Positions 7,056 to 30,649 of a stretch of DNA of 33,456 bases are shown here, piece by piece. The stretch's first letter is position 1; each line of letters opens with the position of its first letter. This stretch comes from a virus, in the IMG/VR virus record IMGVR_UViG_3300018079_000026, positions 1 to 33,456 of that record; one strand, 5' to 3'. Made by a program: the position numbers and the translations under genes. The notes under the pieces were generated by a model, which did no database searches, had not been told where the DNA came from, and worked only from the letters and a program-made list of their open reading frames with translations.

Positions 7056-7679
7056 TTAGGCGGCTTCGGTCTGCGCCTTGACTCTGGCCTGGATCGCTTC
7101 GCTCAGGGCCACGCCTGCCGATCTGAGTTCGGCGTCAGTGGTGAAACTCTCCACCGGCTCGGCCTCGATCCCCAGCGGAACGGCAGCTTCGCGGAGGGCG
7201 TTGTAGCGCTCAACCATCCGCTCGCGCATTGAACGCGGCCCGTTTCCGTTCCCCGACTCCTCGGGGGGCGGGAGCAAATCTTGGGGCGCGGGCGCGCCGA
7301 TATTGAGCAGGCCGCCGAACAACTCGGCCATGTTCTGAGTCGGGATGTTGAGCGGTGAGATGGAGTAAATCTTGGTCTTGCCGCTGTGCTGATTGGCCTT
7401 GAGTTCAGTCAGGATGATCTCAACACTCACGCCGGGATTGAGGACTTCCAAAGCGCGCGTGAGTTGCGCCCCCATGTTGAACAGGACTTTCGCGCCGTCG
7501 TAGAAATGCGCCACGCGATTTGTCTTGATCTCGCCTGTCGCGGGAATGACGCGGCTGAATTCACGCTGGCCGAGATAGAGTCCCCGAAAGGCTTCGCCCA
7601 CTTTTTCAAAAACGAGCGGGGCCGGGGTGATGGTCACGACCGGAGTCGCGGCCTTGAGTTCTTCTGCGTAGGTGGTCAT
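7056..7679 (-). CDS. Possible single-stranded-DNA-binding-like phage protein
   Basis: A 207-aa protein with AAAGGA 9 bases before the ATG. Residues ~15-125 are beta-rich (PLVFEKVGEAFRGLYLG, GEIKTNRVAHFYDG, then SVEIILTELKAN, KTKIYSISPL), compatible with an OB-type fold. Residues 130-150 are a Pro/Gly/Asn linker (LLPPPEESGNGNGP). The C-terminus is helical. The layout resembles phage proteins placed next to replication genes that are thought to bind ssDNA, but no diagnostic motif is present and it lacks the acidic SSB tail. A host-interaction or recombination factor remains possible. Confidence 0.4.
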   Translation of the reverse strand: MTTYAEELKAATPVVTITPAPLVFEKVGEAFRGLYLGQREFSRVIPATGEIKTNRVAHFYDGAKVLFNMGAQLTRALEVLNPGVSVEIILTELKANQHSGKTKIYSISPLNIPTQNMAELFGGLLNIGAPAPQDLLPPPEESGNGNGPRSMRERMVERYNALREAAVPLGIEAEPVESFTTDAELRSAGVALSEAIQARVKAQTEAA

Positions 7680-9118: not shown

Positions 9119-9604
9119 CTAGGCTTTCCGTGCGCCAGCTTCGCGTAAGACAACCTGGCGCATCATCCAGTAGTAATCAAATTGAGTTCCACCGCCTACA
9201 CATTCGCCGTCTTCGACTATGTAGCCGTGATTTCCACCGTCCATGATGTGTGGGGCCGACGTTCCGTACTTGGCTGAGCAATCGGCGGCCACTGCGCTCA
9301 GGAAGGCCACCGAATACTCGCGGCGGGTGAAAAGGAAATCATTTCCAAAGCTGACCGTCTGGCCTTCATGGATGCTGTCATGGTAGCTCTTGAGGTCAAT
9401 CATGCCGTCAAAGGTTGCGCCCTGGAATTTCCCGATCTTGGCCTTGACCGACTCTTCGGTGGGGCCGTCTGTCCAGTTCACGTCAATGCTGGAGCCGCCC
9501 GCATAGCGGGAGGAGCGAACAGAGAACTTTGTGGCGGGGAAGGCCTTCAGTTCCTTGCGGATGATCTTGGCAACTTCGGCAGTGTCAATGTGGGTAGTGG
9601 TCAT
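9119..9604 (-). CDS. LPD29-domain protein
   Basis: The ATG at 9604 (MTTTHIDTAEVAK) forms an ATGA overlap with the previous stop and is preferred over 9616. The product is 161 aa. The segment AEVAKIIRKELKAFPATKFSVRSSRYAGGSSIDVNWTDGP, continuing to FQGATFDGMIDLKSY, is the signature of LPD29, a domain first described in large polyvalent proteins of conjugative elements and phages and suspected to act in conflict with the host. Here it is a short, nearly stand-alone copy. C-terminal residues (GTQFDYYWMMRQVVLRE) complete the domain. Molecular activity unknown. Confidence 0.75.
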   Translation of the reverse strand: MTTTHIDTAEVAKIIRKELKAFPATKFSVRSSRYAGGSSIDVNWTDGPTEESVKAKIGKFQGATFDGMIDLKSYHDSIHEGQTVSFGNDFLFTRREYSVAFLSAVAADCSAKYGTSAPHIMDGGNHGYIVEDGECVGGGTQFDYYWMMRQVVLREAGARKA

Positions 9605-9840
9605 TTTGATAACCACCCGGCTAATTGCTTATCGCCTAAATAGGCCGCATAGTCGGTCTGCAACCAGACGACCAGGGCTTGCTCAACGGTGGGGGTATTC
9701 TCAAGGAAGATGCTGAAGGAGGGGATTTTCCCGGCCAGGATTTCGTCAATCTTGGCATTGCCGCGCTCAGTCATGTAGTCGGCGGGGCCGCTTAGAGTTC
9801 CGTTCTCGATGCTGAAGTTTTTTGCGGTGAAGGTTGTCAT
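9601..9840 (-). CDS. First gene of the leftward operon, hypothetical
   Basis: A 79-aa protein with AGGAG 6 bases before the ATG. It begins with a beta-like stretch (FTAKNFSIENGTLSGPADYM), followed by a helical part (NAKIDEILAGKIPSF and TVEQALVVWLQTDYAAYLG). It is the promoter-proximal gene under the 9870-9898 promoter, so it should be made very early. That makes a regulatory or anti-host role attractive, but the sequence itself gives no function. Confidence 0.65.
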   Translation of the reverse strand: MTTFTAKNFSIENGTLSGPADYMTERGNAKIDEILAGKIPSFSIFLENTPTVEQALVVWLQTDYAAYLGDKQLAGWLSK

Positions 9841-9869
9841 TTCGTCTCCTAATCTCTAAACTTGAGCAT

Positions 9870-9898
9870 ATTGTATAACAAAACTCATGGGATGTCAA
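9870..9898 (-). promoter_or_regulatory. Leftward early promoter
   Basis: On the minus strand a consensus TTGACA (9893-9898) and TACAAT (9870-9875) are 17 bp apart. Transcription should start near 9863, leaving a ~22-base leader with AGGAG before the ATG at 9840. The -10 box lies within an 11-bp sequence (9870-9880) whose inverted copy overlaps the -10 of the divergent promoter, so one regulator could bind both. Confidence 0.75.
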
Positions 9899-9924
9899 TA
9901 GGCAAAATCCGGCCCGGCTGACTA

Positions 9925-9953
9925 TTGACTTTGTTATACGTCTGTTATACAAT
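9925..9953 (+). promoter_or_regulatory. Rightward promoter giving a leaderless transcript
   Basis: TTGACT (9925-9930) and TACAAT (9948-9953) are 17 bp apart. Only six bases separate the -10 from the ATG at 9960, so the expected start point is the A of that ATG. No SD precedes the gene. This is the configuration of leaderless phage repressor mRNAs such as lambda cI from PRM. Confidence 0.7.
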
Positions 9954-9959
9954 CCCGTT

Positions 9960-10169
9960 ATGCCTACTAAAACACGAAAAGTCAAGTTGAAAAACAAGGG
10001 GGGTAGGAAGTACAAGCACGGTGCTCCTATGCTGCCCCTGACTACGCGGGCCACGCCATCCGACTCGGCCTATATTCTCAAGGTCGGAAACGGGAGCCTT
10101 TCGGACGGGTTGCGCGTCTTGATCCAGGCGCATCGCATGGCGGAAATCCGCAACGGAGAGTCGGGATGA
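9960..10169 (+). CDS. Small basic regulator, possibly ribbon-helix-helix
   Basis: A 69-aa protein. Residues 1-22 are a Lys/Arg-rich arm (KTRKVKLKNKGGRKYKHG). Residues ~28-60 read LTTRATPSDSAYILKVGNGSLSDGLRVLIQAHR, with a strand followed by GNGSLSDGLRVLI, a pattern seen in short phage RHH-type proteins (strand, loop, then SxGxR-x-LI helix). The gene is transcribed from a promoter that overlaps putative operators, with a predicted leaderless mRNA, so it is the best candidate for the switch regulator of the region. The stop overlaps the next ATG. Without a structural search, the RHH call remains a hypothesis. Confidence 0.55.
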   Translation: MPTKTRKVKLKNKGGRKYKHGAPMLPLTTRATPSDSAYILKVGNGSLSDGLRVLIQAHRMAEIRNGESG

Positions 10170-10255
10170 TCAAACGGCGACTCGCAGGCCGACAGGCCAG
10201 GCCGAGCCAGTCTAACAAGATCGCAAGGGAGTTTGACTCTCTCAGTCGCCACTGA
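10166..10255 (+). CDS. 29-aa basic ORF coupled to the regulator gene
   Basis: The ATG overlaps the regulator stop (ATGA at 10166-10169). The 29-aa product (MIKRRLAGRQARPSQSNK, then IAREFDSLSRH) is strongly basic in its first half. It is supported only by coupling and by the SD of the following gene overlapping its end. Unknown function. Confidence 0.45.
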   Translation: MIKRRLAGRQARPSQSNKIAREFDSLSRH

Positions 10256-11123: not shown

Positions 11124-11150
11124 AAAGGCTCCGGACTAACCGGGGCCTTT
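11124..11150 (+). terminator. Intrinsic terminator
   Basis: AAAGGC (11124-11129) and GCCTTT (11145-11150) enclose CCGG/CCGG pairs around an ACTAA loop, giving a stem of ~10 pairs with one bulge. Pyrimidines (TTTCTCTTT) follow. It ends the regulator operon ~50 bases after the last stop. Confidence 0.75.
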
Positions 11151-12099: not shown

Positions 12100-13322
12100 C
12101 ATCCAAACTCGCCCCTCACATTCTCGGCACGTCCTCAGACGGCGCGCGCCTGGCCCGCGAAGCGCCCGTGTTGGCCGTCAAGCTCGTGGACGATTTCGGC
12201 CTGGCCGATGAACTCTCGCATAAGTTCCCCAAGCCGCTCGTCATTGGCCGGGTGAGCGGGGCCAACGTAGACCCCGGCGCAGTGCTGGGAATAGACCCCA
12301 AGATTTTCGCGCAGGACGTGTTCGATACACAGATGAGTCGGGCCGTCATCCTCAACCCTGCCGTTGCCGCCTGGGAGGCCGGAGCCAACGAGCCGGTCTG
12401 CAAGAGCATAGAGTCAATGCGTTGGTATGCCGTCTACGAGGCCGAGATGATACGAATGCTCTCGGCCCTGGGCAAGGCCGCCGTCATCGGGAATTTTTCT
12501 GTCGGGCAGCCGGAGCCGGAACTTTGGCCGGAGTTTACCGCCGCGCTCAACATCGCTCAAATCTATATGTCGTTTCTCGGCCTGCATGAGTACGGCGAGC
12601 CGTCACGTTTGGCCGCCTGGGATCAATGGTATCTCGGCAGATTTACCAGAGCCCCATTTATCAAAACCATCATCACCGAATGCGGGACAGACTCGGTTCC
12701 GCCAGTCCCCGAAGACGGCACATTCCCCGCTGTTCACCCCGCCGGCCGCCCCTGGCGCGACCAGTTCGGAACGGACGCGTTGGGCATTGCTGCCTACCGG
12801 GATTATCTGATCGGCTACGACTTACGACTGCAGCAATATCCGCAGATCGTGGCCGCTTGTATTTTCGCGTTTGGCAATGGCGGAGACTCGCGTTGGGATA
12901 GGCACGACATTCAGGGCAGCGGGTTGGTGGATCACCTGATTGCCTACATCAAGTCGAATGCGGGCACGGCCCCTCTGCCTCCGCCGCCCGAACCTGAGCC
13001 GGAACCGGAACCGCCGCCCATCGAGCCGCCCCCGTCTACCGTTGAGCACTACTTTGGGGGCCGAGAGAATTATTGGGTCATCAATCTCTATAAAGACGCC
13101 TTCGGCCTCCCGTTTTATAAGGACGTGATCGCGCGCGTGCGAGTTGACGCGACTTCGACTCTGCTCAACATGGAAGACCCGCTCAAAATTCACGTAGGCT
13201 ATCACGGCCCGCCGACGGTCGAGGCCATCCCCGACTACACGCCCGGCCCGCCGCCGATGGGGTTGACGGGGGCTGAGAAGCAAGTGCTGATCAATCAAAT
13301 GGTCGCGAGCCATTGGCTATGA
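12096..13322 (+). CDS. Glycosidase-like endolysin candidate
   Basis: A 408-aa protein with a GTG start in a GTGA overlap. Residues ~1-285 resemble a TIM-barrel glycoside hydrolase: alternating strand/helix elements, FLGLHEYGEP (Glu165, Glu168) and IITECGTD (Glu195), residue patterns seen in clan GH-A-like enzymes. Residues ~290-315 are a Pro/Glu linker with repeated PEP units. The last ~95 residues (VEHYFGGRENYWVINLYKDAF onward) form a separate domain, perhaps for cell-wall or membrane binding. Its place after a holin suggests it cuts peptidoglycan or a surface glycan for lysis. A virion-associated glycan hydrolase is the alternative. Confidence 0.55.
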   Translation: MTSKLAPHILGTSSDGARLAREAPVLAVKLVDDFGLADELSHKFPKPLVIGRVSGANVDPGAVLGIDPKIFAQDVFDTQMSRAVILNPAVAAWEAGANEPVCKSIESMRWYAVYEAEMIRMLSALGKAAVIGNFSVGQPEPELWPEFTAALNIAQIYMSFLGLHEYGEPSRLAAWDQWYLGRFTRAPFIKTIITECGTDSVPPVPEDGTFPAVHPAGRPWRDQFGTDALGIAAYRDYLIGYDLRLQQYPQIVAACIFAFGNGGDSRWDRHDIQGSGLVDHLIAYIKSNAGTAPLPPPPEPEPEPEPPPIEPPPSTVEHYFGGRENYWVINLYKDAFGLPFYKDVIARVRVDATSTLLNMEDPLKIHVGYHGPPTVEAIPDYTPGPPPMGLTGAEKQVLINQMVASHWL

Positions 13323-14605
13323 CGAAAGCTAAATCGAACGGCCACGCGCCCGCGAAGCTCATCACGCACCTGCGCGATTTGAAGCCTCAGCGCCGCAACG
13401 TCAACAAGCATACCCCTTTGGGATCGCGTGAGCTTCGTAACTCTATCCAACGTGACGGGATTATAGGCGGCATTACTGTAGCCGCTGATGGTGAGTCGTT
13501 CGATGGCTCAGACCGACTCGAAACGCTGGCCGAGGTCATGTCGGACGTTGAGATTATCGAAGTCAAAACGCGCGGCAAAACGTTGATCGTCAATCGCCGG
13601 ATGGACATTCCCACCGCCGACGACCCGCGCGCGGAACGCTTGGGATTCGCAGCTAACGCTGTCGCGGCGATGAACTGGAATCCGGACGGTGAACTCCTGG
13701 CGGCACTGGAAAAGGATGATCAAGTTATATCCGATTTGGTGAAGTACGAACAGGCGAGTCTCAAGGCGATGATCGGCGCGAACGGCGACATGGCCGACGC
13801 CGAGCCGCAGATAGACCGCGCCGCCGAACTGCTCAAGGTGTGGAAGGTCAAGCGCGGCGACCTGTGGCGCATCGGAGAACACCGACTCTTGTGTGGCGAC
13901 TCGACTGTGCGTGAGGACGTGGAGCGGGTGATGGGCGGGGAGAAGGCGGATTGTATTCTGACGGATCCTCCGTATTGCTCCGGTGGTTTTCAAGAGGCGG
14001 GAAAGAAATCGGGGAGTATTGGAACAAGGGGCGAAGAGATGATCGCAAATGATACTCTATCAACGCGCGGATATGTTGCGCTTATGAAATCCGTTTTATC
14101 AATTGGAGAATGTGGCATAGCCTACATTTTCACGGATTGGAGAATGTGGGTAAACCTGTTTGACGTTTGCGAGTCTTCTGGTTATGGAGTCAGAAATATG
14201 GTTGTATGGGATAAACAAAATCCAGGCATGGGAAGGGGCTGGCGCTCACAGCACGAATTGATTATGGCTGCAATGCGAGTCACTCAGCCATTTGATCCAC
14301 ACAAGGCGCAAGGTAACGTTATCCAAAGTGATAGAACCGGAAACATTCTCCACCCAACCGAAAAACCCATTGACCTTTTACAAAAAATACTTGATGTGAC
14401 AGACATAGCCAAAGTTATTTACGATCCCTTTTGTGGTTCCGGGCCGGTGCTCGTCGCCTGCGAAAATCTCAAGCGCCGGGGGCGGGCTATTGAGATTTCT
14501 CCGACCTATTGCGCCGTGACGTTGCAGCGCATGGCGGACGCCTTTCCGGGCATCGAGATAGAGCGAGTTGAGAATGGCAAAGCGAAGCGCAAAGGCCGCG
14601 CCTGA
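13319..14605 (+). CDS. ParB-like domain fused to beta-class DNA methyltransferase
   Basis: The ATG at 13319 overlaps the endolysin stop (ATGA); 428 aa. Residues ~10-110 are a ParB/Srx-like domain (LRDLKPQRRNVNKHT, ITVAADGESFDGSDRLE, then TADDPRAERLGFAANAVA). From ~185 the methyltransferase begins: GDLWRIGEHRLLCGDST, catalytic DPPY at 216-219, and the SAM-binding DPFCGSG at 369-375. The DPPY-before-FxGxG order defines a beta-class N6-adenine or N4-cytosine enzyme, with the target-recognition region between them. That region is ~44% G+C (14041-14400) against ~67% before it. Such fusions are common in phages and plausibly protect virion DNA from host restriction. Confidence 0.85.
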   Translation: MTKAKSNGHAPAKLITHLRDLKPQRRNVNKHTPLGSRELRNSIQRDGIIGGITVAADGESFDGSDRLETLAEVMSDVEIIEVKTRGKTLIVNRRMDIPTADDPRAERLGFAANAVAAMNWNPDGELLAALEKDDQVISDLVKYEQASLKAMIGANGDMADAEPQIDRAAELLKVWKVKRGDLWRIGEHRLLCGDSTVREDVERVMGGEKADCILTDPPYCSGGFQEAGKKSGSIGTRGEEMIANDTLSTRGYVALMKSVLSIGECGIAYIFTDWRMWVNLFDVCESSGYGVRNMVVWDKQNPGMGRGWRSQHELIMAAMRVTQPFDPHKAQGNVIQSDRTGNILHPTEKPIDLLQKILDVTDIAKVIYDPFCGSGPVLVACENLKRRGRAIEISPTYCAVTLQRMADAFPGIEIERVENGKAKRKGRA

Positions 14606-27497: not shown

Positions 27498-27695
27498 ATG
27501 AATACTGCTGGTGTGGATGCGCGTAATCATATTGGGCCATTCTATTTTTGGAAGAAGTGGAACCATCTTCCTCATGCTCGGGATAAGTATACCGAGAAAG
27601 GGATTGGATTTTCATTCGGTAGACTTTACTTCTATGCGGGCCTCAAGCTCGCTGAGGGTTATTCTGAATTAGTCTTTAGATTATCGCACCCATGA
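27498..27695 (+). CDS. Small hypothetical protein in the sugar cassette
   Basis: A 65-aa basic/aromatic protein with AGGATAA before the ATG. It contains RNHIGPFYFWKKWNHLPHARD and FGRLYFYAGLKLAEGYSELV. No catalytic motif or membrane span is visible. Its stop overlaps the ATG of the large glycosyltransferase gene. Function not recognised. Confidence 0.55.
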   Translation: MNTAGVDARNHIGPFYFWKKWNHLPHARDKYTEKGIGFSFGRLYFYAGLKLAEGYSELVFRLSHP

Positions 27696-30649
27696 CCAAA
27701 GTTTTGATCTGGCCCTTCCCGACTGAGCAACCCGCTAATCACGGCATAGGCCGCGTCGTCCACGCGCAGAATAAATACCTTCCGGCATTGGGGATCAAGC
27801 TCACGCGCAATCCGAACGAAGCCGAGGTTATCGCCTGCCATACTCAGCAATGGAACTTCCCGCGCGTGGATGCTCTGCATCTGCATGGCCTGTATTGGAC
27901 GGGTGATAAGGGGAGCGGAGTTTATACCAAGTGGCATCAAGACGCTAATACGCAAATCGCGGCTGCAGCCCGCCGAGCGCGCGCCTTGACCGTTCCGAGC
28001 GGATGGGTAGGCGAATGTATCAAGCGCGATATGCGACTCGTCCCGCGTCTTATCGGGCACGGCATCGAGCCGGAGGAGTGGACGGCAGGCGCGAATGGCG
28101 GATACGTCCTATGGAACAAGAACCGGGATGGAGATGTCTGTGATCCCCTGCCCGCCTACTTCCTGGCTGATCACGGAGTCAAAGTCATTTCAACCTTTGC
28201 GCCGGGGGGGCGAGCTATCCCCGGCAGCATGACTCTTACCGGACAAATTCCGGCTGACCAGATGCGCGAAATCATCCGCAATACAGACATTTATCTAGCG
28301 ACGGTGAAAGAAACGTTTGGCATCGGCACGCTTGAAGCGATGGCCTGCGGCGTTCCGGTGGTGGGCTATCAGCACGGCGGCACGGCGGAACTTGTGCGGC
28401 ACGAATTGGACGGCTACCTGGTCGCGCCCGGCGACCTGGATGGCCTGCGCGCCGGGGTAGAGTGGGTCCATAAGCACCGCGCCGCGCTCTCGATGAATGC
28501 CAAAATCCGGGCGCGCGAGTTCACCTGGGCACGCGTGATGAAACAGTATGCAGAACTCTATCACGAATTGGCGCACACTCCGGAGCCTGCCGGAGTAACC
28601 GTTGTGGTGACATGCTACAACTACGGGCGCTATCTAACCGGGTGCCTGGATTCTCTCCTGGCGCAGTCCTATCGGCCCGATCAAATCATCGTGATTGACG
28701 ATGGCTCGACCGACGATTCCGGGCTGGTTTCCAACCGTTACAATACTCAAGGCGTAGAGTATATTTATCAAGAGAATTCCGGAGTCGCTTCGGCTCGCAA
28801 TCGTGGATTATCCCTGGCACGACATCCGTTTGTGATTTGCCTGGACGCCGACGATCAACTCGCCCCGCGCTATGTAGAAGTTTGTCGGCAGGAACTTATA
28901 AAGGATAGGGGCTTGGGCATTGCCTACACCGGTCTGGAGGTATTCAACGACGAGGGAATCCGGCAGCGCACCGGCTGGCCGCCGGACTTCGAGATTGAAA
29001 CCGATGCCTGGGAACGGCAAACGACTGTTAGCACCCCGCCGTCTAACTGTTTCCCCTCGGCCTCGATGTTTCGCCGCGCGATGTGGGAACGCGCAGGCGG
29101 CTATAAGCAGGAGTACAAGCCCGCCGAGGATACGGAGTTTTGGACGCGCGGCCTATCGGTGGGCTTCTCAGCCAAGCGCGTGACCGACTCGCCCTGGATT
29201 TGGTATCGCAGTCATCCGGGGAGCGCCAGCCGAAATAATAAATATCGCCCGATAGACGACTGGCTACCCTGGATGCGCGACCGGAACTATCCCCTAGCCG
29301 CGCCCTCCAAGTTTGCCCCGCCCGTGCGCTCCTATTCTGCGCCAAAGGTAAGCGTGGTGATCCCGGTCGGGCCGGGGCATGCACAATACCTCCCGCAGGC
29401 TATAGAGAGTCTGTTGGGGCAAACGATGCGCGACTGGGAAGTGATCGTGGTTTGGGATGAACCCGTAAGAGATTTTGGGCCGCGTTCCGAAACAGAAAGG
29501 CCCTATCCTTTTGTCCGTTGGTACTATGCGGATATAGAAACACAGAACGTCGGAAAAATAATGGGGGCCGGAGTGTCAAGAAATGTGGGACTAAATAATT
29601 GCCGTGCCCCGCTCGTCTTATGCCTTGACGCCGACGATCAACTCCATCCTCAGGCGCTCGCCAAATTGTGCAAAGCCTACTCCGAAAGCGGCGGACGCTA
29701 TATCTATGGAGACTGGCTGGAGAGAGCCGGAGACGATCTAAAAGAATACCCCTCGCCAGAATATGATCCGAGCGCCTGGGTAGACTTATCCGAGATGGGC
29801 GGTAAGCACATCGTTAGCGTCCTGATGGCGACCGAGGACGCGCGGCGCGTGGGCGGTTTTGACGAGTCTCTCCTGGCCTGGGAAGATTGGGATTTCTTTA
29901 TCAAGTGTGCTACTCTAGGAATTCACGGGCGGCGCATCCCGGAGCCAACGCTCATCGTCAGGCGTCAAGCGGACTCCCGCACGGCGAGATTATTCGCCAA
30001 CAACGGCCAGCGCGCCGAGCTTATTGAAAAACTCGCGGCGCGATATGCGCCTTACGTGAAAGGAATAAAAGTAATGGCCCCTTGTTGTGGTGGAAATGGG
30101 GAGTCCCTGCTCGCGGCGCGTCTGGCCTACGAGGGAATGGCCCCCGATACGGGCGGACTCTCTCTACACATTACCACTCGGAACGGAAAGGAACTCGATC
30201 ACATGGTTATTCAAGGCGCACCCCATTCAGGCGTCACGCCTGTGCGGATGGAATTCATCGGCGAACGAGCCGGTGGCGTGACCTATACTGGAAAGCAGGG
30301 GCGGCAATACGTCGGCGGGAATAACGCTTTGGAGCGTTACGCAAATGTTCATCCTGATGACGTGGCAACTCTAACAAGCCTCGGAGATTGGCGAGTTCTA
30401 GCTGTAGCCGTGCCAATGCAGAGGACTATTACTCAGGAGAATTGGACTCCGACGATTTCCGAGTCGGTAGACTCTAGGGCAGCGGCGGTAGAAGTTGAAG
30501 ATACGGACGCAGAGATCGAAGAACTCAAGCCCATCGAGACGGCAGGCGGCGTTGTCAAGCGCAAGAGGGTAAAAGAGAAGGTCAAGGATACCCCTCTCAA
30601 AGAGTTGCCGCCGTTGGATGAGCCCGCGCCGACTCGCCGGGGAAAATGA
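27692..30649 (+). CDS. Three-module glycosyltransferase (GT4-GT2-GT2) with extra C-terminal domain
   Basis: A 985-aa protein. Residues 1-300 are a GT-B fold, GT4-like: VLIWPFPTEQPANHGIGRV, IGHGIEPEEW and ETFGIGTLEAMACGVPVV, giving the E-x7-E motif (Glu207, Glu215). Residues ~302-545 are a first GT2 (VTVVVTCYNYGRYL, VIDDGSTDD, metal site LDADDQ at 384-389). Residues ~551-790 are a second GT2 (VSVVIPVGPGH, LDADDQ at 645-650, WEDWDFF). Residues ~850-905 (VRMEFIGERAGGVTYTGKQ, then YANVHPDDVATLTSLGDWRV) resemble small phage head-tail proteins. A charged Lys/Glu tail ends it. Likely builds a glycan from several sugars, maybe on virion or host surface. It overlaps genes on both sides. Confidence 0.8.
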   Translation: MTKVLIWPFPTEQPANHGIGRVVHAQNKYLPALGIKLTRNPNEAEVIACHTQQWNFPRVDALHLHGLYWTGDKGSGVYTKWHQDANTQIAAAARRARALTVPSGWVGECIKRDMRLVPRLIGHGIEPEEWTAGANGGYVLWNKNRDGDVCDPLPAYFLADHGVKVISTFAPGGRAIPGSMTLTGQIPADQMREIIRNTDIYLATVKETFGIGTLEAMACGVPVVGYQHGGTAELVRHELDGYLVAPGDLDGLRAGVEWVHKHRAALSMNAKIRAREFTWARVMKQYAELYHELAHTPEPAGVTVVVTCYNYGRYLTGCLDSLLAQSYRPDQIIVIDDGSTDDSGLVSNRYNTQGVEYIYQENSGVASARNRGLSLARHPFVICLDADDQLAPRYVEVCRQELIKDRGLGIAYTGLEVFNDEGIRQRTGWPPDFEIETDAWERQTTVSTPPSNCFPSASMFRRAMWERAGGYKQEYKPAEDTEFWTRGLSVGFSAKRVTDSPWIWYRSHPGSASRNNKYRPIDDWLPWMRDRNYPLAAPSKFAPPVRSYSAPKVSVVIPVGPGHAQYLPQAIESLLGQTMRDWEVIVVWDEPVRDFGPRSETERPYPFVRWYYADIETQNVGKIMGAGVSRNVGLNNCRAPLVLCLDADDQLHPQALAKLCKAYSESGGRYIYGDWLERAGDDLKEYPSPEYDPSAWVDLSEMGGKHIVSVLMATEDARRVGGFDESLLAWEDWDFFIKCATLGIHGRRIPEPTLIVRRQADSRTARLFANNGQRAELIEKLAARYAPYVKGIKVMAPCCGGNGESLLAARLAYEGMAPDTGGLSLHITTRNGKELDHMVIQGAPHSGVTPVRMEFIGERAGGVTYTGKQGRQYVGGNNALERYANVHPDDVATLTSLGDWRVLAVAVPMQRTITQENWTPTISESVDSRAAAVEVEDTDAEIEELKPIETAGGVVKRKRVKEKVKDTPLKELPPLDEPAPTRRGK

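Follow-up and report, generated by a model that had tools for sequence, protein, structure and literature searches.

The 120-bp region that separates the two arms of an uncultivated phage genome is best read, from its sequence, as a central and autoregulated transcription switch, at which a 69-amino acid (aa) protein would repress both arms through TGTTATAC sites. We give this reading a probability of about 0.6. The promoters, the repeated sites and their rarity, the strand architecture, the leaderless arrangement and the family membership of the protein are read directly from the DNA, and it is by position that the 69-aa protein is linked to its candidate TGTTATAC sites.

The window, i.e., the whole stretch of DNA analysed, is an entire IMG/VR virus record of 33,456 bases (GC 57%). 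A codon-usage gene map showed a single divergent strand switch, with all called genes left of 9840 on the minus strand and all those right of 9960 on the plus strand. The left arm includes an O-like replication initiator with a helix-turn-helix (HTH), an LPD29 protein and many proteins with no assigned function. The right arm includes a BhlA-type holin, a methyltransferase, the terminase large subunit and further structural genes, in an order common to its relatives. Replication functions are encoded leftward, and lysis, head and tail functions rightward. Other IMG/VR contigs encode terminases with 50-56% identity to that of the window, and the closest cellular relatives of this terminase are found in Herpetosiphon aurantiacus and an Anaerolineae MAG. 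This makes a Chloroflexota host likely, and the record represents an uncultivated tailed phage, probably of such a host. No tyrosine or serine recombinase or integrase was found in this record, which may be incomplete; tyrosine integrases are present in the relatives G008 and G011.

Two genes of the right arm deserve mention. The product of 27692-30649 is 985 aa long and combines several glycosyltransferase domains (GT4-like, GT2-like and galactosyltransferase C-terminal); parts of this protein match six related loci. The N6/N4 DNA methyltransferase (13313-14605), located between the lysis and terminase genes, has an N-terminal extension of ~200 aa that may be ParB-like.

Mirrored promoters and repeated sites at the strand switch

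The features of the region (9841-9962) and of its flanking genes are as follows.

9601 to 9840, minus strand: first leftward gene, 79 aa, function not assigned; ATG at 9840, Shine-Dalgarno (SD) sequence AGGAG at 9850-9846
9898 to 9870, minus strand: leftward promoter TTGACA-17-TACAAT, 11/12; -35 at 9898-9893, -10 at 9875-9870
9925 to 9953, plus strand: rightward promoter TTGACT-17-TACAAT, 10/12; -35 at 9925-9930, -10 at 9948-9953
9894 to 9901, minus strand: mirror block CTATTGAC around the leftward -35
9922 to 9929, plus strand: mirror block CTATTGAC around the rightward -35
9873 to 9880, minus strand: operator-like TGTTATAC within TTGTTATACAA (9881-9871), overlapping the leftward -10
9932 to 9939, plus strand: operator-like TGTTATAC in the rightward spacer; its GTTATAC is 9933-9939
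9943 to 9950, plus strand: operator-like TGTTATAC in TGTTATACAAT (9943-9953), overlapping the rightward -10
9960 to 10169, plus strand: 69-aa basic small protein, ribbon-helix-helix (RHH)-like, N-terminus MPTKTRK; leaderless start predicted
10166 to 10255, plus strand: putative 29-aa open reading frame (ORF) that overlaps the 69-aa gene at its stop codon (ATGA)
11124 to 11150, plus strand: terminator-like hairpin with an 11-bp stem, RNA fold z = -3.1

An earlier sequence-only reading had described two near-consensus outward promoters with 17-bp spacing, and both are present as claimed. The same reading placed TGTTATACAAT over one -10 and its exact reverse complement over the other; these were confirmed at 9943-9953 and 9870-9880, so that both -10s are covered. 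The third GTTATAC, said to lie one turn away, is found 11 bp from the next copy (about one helical turn). By their position in the sequence, the putative TGTTATAC operators lie over both promoters.

The two promoters share one dyad centred at 9911.5, around which the CTATTGAC blocks of the -35s and the TGTTATACAAT blocks of the -10s are mirrored. Identity between the mirror halves extends 5 nt past the -10 and 3 nt past the -35, and the 12-nt spacer interiors have diverged. Two conserved blocks with a diverged spacer are the pattern expected from selection on promoter and operator, unlike that of a recent inverted duplication. The full site is an imperfect 11-bp palindrome, TTGT-TAT-ACAA, which is exact at the left site only. 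No further copy of TGTTATACAAT was found anywhere in the 33 kb when up to one mismatch was allowed.

The region was compared with 5000 dinucleotide shuffles of its 120 bp. A divergent pair of promoters of at least 10/12 appeared in three of the 5000 shuffles, an inverted repeat of at least 11 nt in three, and an identical 11-mer ending both -10s in one. The region has nine pairs of 8-mer repeats, compared with 0.15 expected (p about 0.001). The rarity of these promoters and repeats in shuffled sequence, at the sole strand switch of the record, supports the proposal of a compact divergent control region.

A predicted leaderless start for the first rightward gene

The first T of the rightward TACAAT (T9948) is located 12 bp before A9960, and the ATG begins 7 nt after the last base of the -10. 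No SD was found in the 20 nt that precede the ATG at 9960. Leaderless bacterial genes have been described as those with a TANNNT whose first T lies about 12 bp before the start codon and with no SD, and they were found in 4 of 12 Chloroflexi genomes (Zheng et al. 2011, PMC3160421). By its sequence, the 69-aa gene would be one of them. The predicted rightward transcription start appears to be the A of ATG 9960, giving a leaderless mRNA. The sequence-only reading had expected the rightward start at the ATG of a small protein without SD, and this stands as a prediction that follows the published 12-bp rule and has a counterpart in the related contig L029.

The window and 12 related contigs were scanned for promoters of at least 9/12 placed 11-13 bp before an ATG. 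None of the 381 machine-called starts qualified; 9960 and L029:5477, which had been included manually, did. The same two were the only ones to qualify among 3080 ATG-started ORFs of at least 40 aa, taken in all frames of the 13 contigs. Each is the first rightward gene at a divergent switch, and L029:5477 encodes an HTH protein with an HTH_31 match above the Pfam cut-off. When the scan was widened to 85 loci, the arrangement occurred in 11 of 14,147 ORFs. Among these is a gene in the chromosome of H. aurantiacus, ArsR-like by eye (L060:4877), which has a 12/12 promoter, TTGACA-18-TATAAT, 12 bp before its ATG and points away from its neighbour. Regulators with leaderless mRNAs may be usual in the Herpetosiphon host group. 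A second strong promoter of the window, TTGACC-18-TATAAT (5657-5628, minus strand, 11/12), is found within the left arm. It was considered as the promoter of a second leaderless gene (ATG ~10 nt from the first T of the -10) and rejected, as the 68-aa frame looks non-coding beside a 140-aa frame.

The rightward mRNA, taken from its AUG, has no more structure than shuffled sequence. The leftward gene has a predicted leader of about 23 nt with an SD, and its 79-aa product has no Pfam or PHROG match. In some of these phages, leaderless initiation may be reserved for the switch regulator.

In phage PY54, the cI and cro mRNAs were shown by RACE to be leaderless, and the leaderless repressor mRNA of lambda was noted in the same report (PMC4488713). 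The immB regions of PY54 and N15 share divergent promoters with the window; the operator between their promoters and their leaderless regulator mRNA have counterparts in the candidate sites and the predicted leaderless mRNA of the window. Their regulators are lambda-type cI and Cro; in the window one RHH-like regulator was seen and one arm only is predicted to be leaderless. In the immunity region of lambda (OR, PR, PRM-cI), the divergent promoters overlie operators that they share, and the repressor mRNA is leaderless. Divergent promoters that separate two arms are common to lambda and the window, and the operators over both promoters are candidate sites in the latter. No cI/Cro homologue and no pair of regulators were found in the window: there is one repressor candidate at the switch, and the left-arm proteins are mostly without assignment.

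The 69-aa protein and its family

Direct searches for close relatives of the 69-aa protein returned none in IMG/VR, GenBank phages or 400 genomes of the Chloroflexota phylum; a match on a Rhizobium plasmid was discarded because it is an ABC-transporter ATPase. Relatives were retrieved using a composed consensus query as a lead, and all tests were carried out with natural sequences only. The seeds were natural proteins from Erwinia phage UCB24, Iodobacter phage PhiPLPE, a Sulfuricystis plasmid and one genome of the phylum; a search of IMG/VR with these seeds led to an alignment of 14 sequences. The 69-aa protein matched the natural homologue seed set with an hhalign E of 1.7e-7. In the alignment, nearly all sequences have a GRP-type motif, and all have a strand-like stretch and G[NEH]G[NSH]x[SA]xG[IL]R. 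The family is one of small proteins with no annotation and the motif pattern GRP...G[NE]GNxSEGIR.

The profile of the family aligned collinearly with a natural RHH_1 set (score 23.3, E 1e-4, hhalign probability 57%); the best of 60 column-permuted controls scored 12.6. An AlphaFold2 (AF2) monomer computed from the 14 sequences has an extended stretch at 25-31 and helices at 33-42 and 47-67 (pTM 0.46, pLDDT about 90 over residues 31-60), which is the strand-helix-helix order with a short turn of RHH proteins. The single-sequence AF2 model was poor. The 69-aa protein had no Pfam match at E <= 1 and no NCBIfam match; a sequence search of the PDB, Foldseek and VIA-align 2 gave no usable match, the Foldseek null being no evidence against an RHH fold. 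An Rfam search returned nothing. Structure prediction, which the sequence-only reading had proposed as a check, gave the RHH-like order in the AF2 model. With the profile and AF2 in favour and no match in Pfam, NCBIfam, PDB or Foldseek, we call the protein "RHH-like" with moderate confidence. Its earlier description as a small basic protein holds, and can be extended to a family with an RHH-like profile and predicted topology.

PHROG 7830 matches the 69-aa protein weakly (E 0.014) and three family members better (best 5e-5). Members of this PHROG are about 130 aa long, have no assigned function, and share with the 69-aa family the C-terminal part alone. The loci L070-L089 encode small proteins with G[NE]GNxSEGIR, some of which carry in addition a longer N-terminal part (PHROG 7830); many of their genes have no SD, and the family has no Pfam entry. 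A toxin-antitoxin reading of the 69-aa gene was rejected because the next ORF is just 29 aa long.

Arc and Mnt of phage P22 are small RHH repressors of a phage control region whose sites lie about one helical turn apart, and RHH dimers such as those of Arc usually bind in tandem at sites spaced by one turn. The window protein differs from them in that its sequence matches no named RHH family, its candidate operator is different and its locus is not arc/mnt. Divergent switches with leaderless regulator mRNAs and RHH phage repressors are already known; as judged from these comparisons, what is new here, as a further member, is their combination and the unannotated family.

Related phages and the proposed mechanism

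Eight related contigs (L028, L029, L030, L033, L036, L039, L040 and L042) also have their genes diverge at a strand switch located upstream of the terminase, and L121 is similar. The clearest promoter-like sites on the two strands are those of L028, L036, L040, L042 and L121, and divergent promoters have HTH and/or RHH-like neighbours in L028, L029, L036, L040 and L121. The first rightward gene encodes an HTH protein in L028, L029, L036 and L121, and a lysin, with no regulator, in L033, L039 and L040. One of the first two leftward genes encodes an RHH-like protein in L028, L033, L036, L039, L040 and L121 (the last by eye); compared singly with the RHH_1 set, only the left-side proteins of L028 and L039 score appreciably. 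HTH or RHH-like genes therefore flank the same switch in relatives, in agreement with the proposal of a switch that includes its regulator.

Repeats of their own, above chance, were found in L030 (TATCATAC three times) and L042 (p 0.001 for both), L033 (p 0.005) and L039 (p 0.01). Those of L029 (GACATTTAT twice) are borderline (p 0.06), and the test gave no significance in L028, L035, L036 and L040. The repeat sequences vary between phages, a pattern that operators specific to each regulator would produce. From these sequences, the control region is common to the phage group, and the predicted leaderless start occurs only in the window and L029. In three contigs (L033 ~7450-7475, L039 ~780-800 and L040 ~1968-1983) a TTGAC is located 7-8 nt upstream of a rightward -10 TATACT; it is too near to be a -35 and may instead be a site for an operator or activator. 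Beside the switch of L030 (6151-6184) lies a perfect palindrome of 34 nt (CACACACGCCGCTCCAATTGGAGCGGCGTGTGTG), terminator-like or a protein site.

In the proposed mechanism, two strong promoters of the host-sigma type fire outward and, being near consensus, should do so on entry. Leftward, the replication arm would be expressed from an mRNA with a leader and an SD. Rightward transcription would cover a short operon, and its first gene would be translated from the AUG that opens a leaderless mRNA. We infer the RHH fold, the binding as dimers, the target and the repression: dimers of the 69-aa protein would bind a single TGTTATAC site over the leftward -10 and, over the rightward -10 and spacer, a pair of sites spaced by one helical turn (11 bp). 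Since the sites are placed over both promoters, binding would shut both, and as the protein accumulates it would turn off the leftward arm and its own promoter. The hairpin at 11124-11150 would end the first rightward transcript before the lysis, head and tail genes; the head and tail genes lie beyond it, and read-through or another promoter would be needed for them. The outcome could be either lysogeny or a brake on timing.

It is unlikely, but to be taken seriously, that the sites are bound by another protein, the product of another phage gene or a host regulator, and that the 69-aa protein acts elsewhere, for example in DNA binding or modulation. The regulators of the relatives lie on either side of the switch and have different folds, the other members of the 69-aa family are not at divergent switches and belong to operons elsewhere, mostly without upstream repeats, and the left-arm proteins without assigned function are many. 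However, the 69-aa gene is the first after the operators, two of the three sites are in its promoter, and the sole other HTH match found is that of the replication initiator.

We consider it improbable that the region holds promoters and no operator, the mirror being due to similar extended elements or an old inverted duplication. The shared sequence is indeed in part -10 and -35 consensus, and the promoters of L028 and L036 have no significant extra repeats. Nevertheless, the third TGTTATAC is away from any -10, the identity continues past both hexamers with a diverged spacer between them, and other phages of the group have non-promoter repeats at the same place. A start at ATG 10029, which would give a 46-aa protein from a leadered mRNA, is favoured by the codon-usage caller and is very improbable, since the homologues conserve the GRP-type motif at residues 15-17, before M24, no SD is found upstream and the -10 is exactly 12 bp from 9960.

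The autoregulated switch proposed here may be one case of a more general arrangement. Tentatively, the phages could share a fixed chassis of divergent near-consensus promoters, in some members with a leaderless first rightward regulator whose -10 is exactly 12 bp from the AUG, in which regulator and operators are swapped as a cassette across unrelated folds. These folds would be RHH-like in the window, XRE in L029 and HTH in L028, L036 and L121. If so, the TGTTATAC sites would be the first candidate operator for the GRP...GNGNxSEGIR small-protein family. The nearest cellular relatives of this phage group are Chloroflexota prophage-like loci, and the window offers a candidate regulator/operator pair, ready to test, for a family of small proteins without a Pfam entry.
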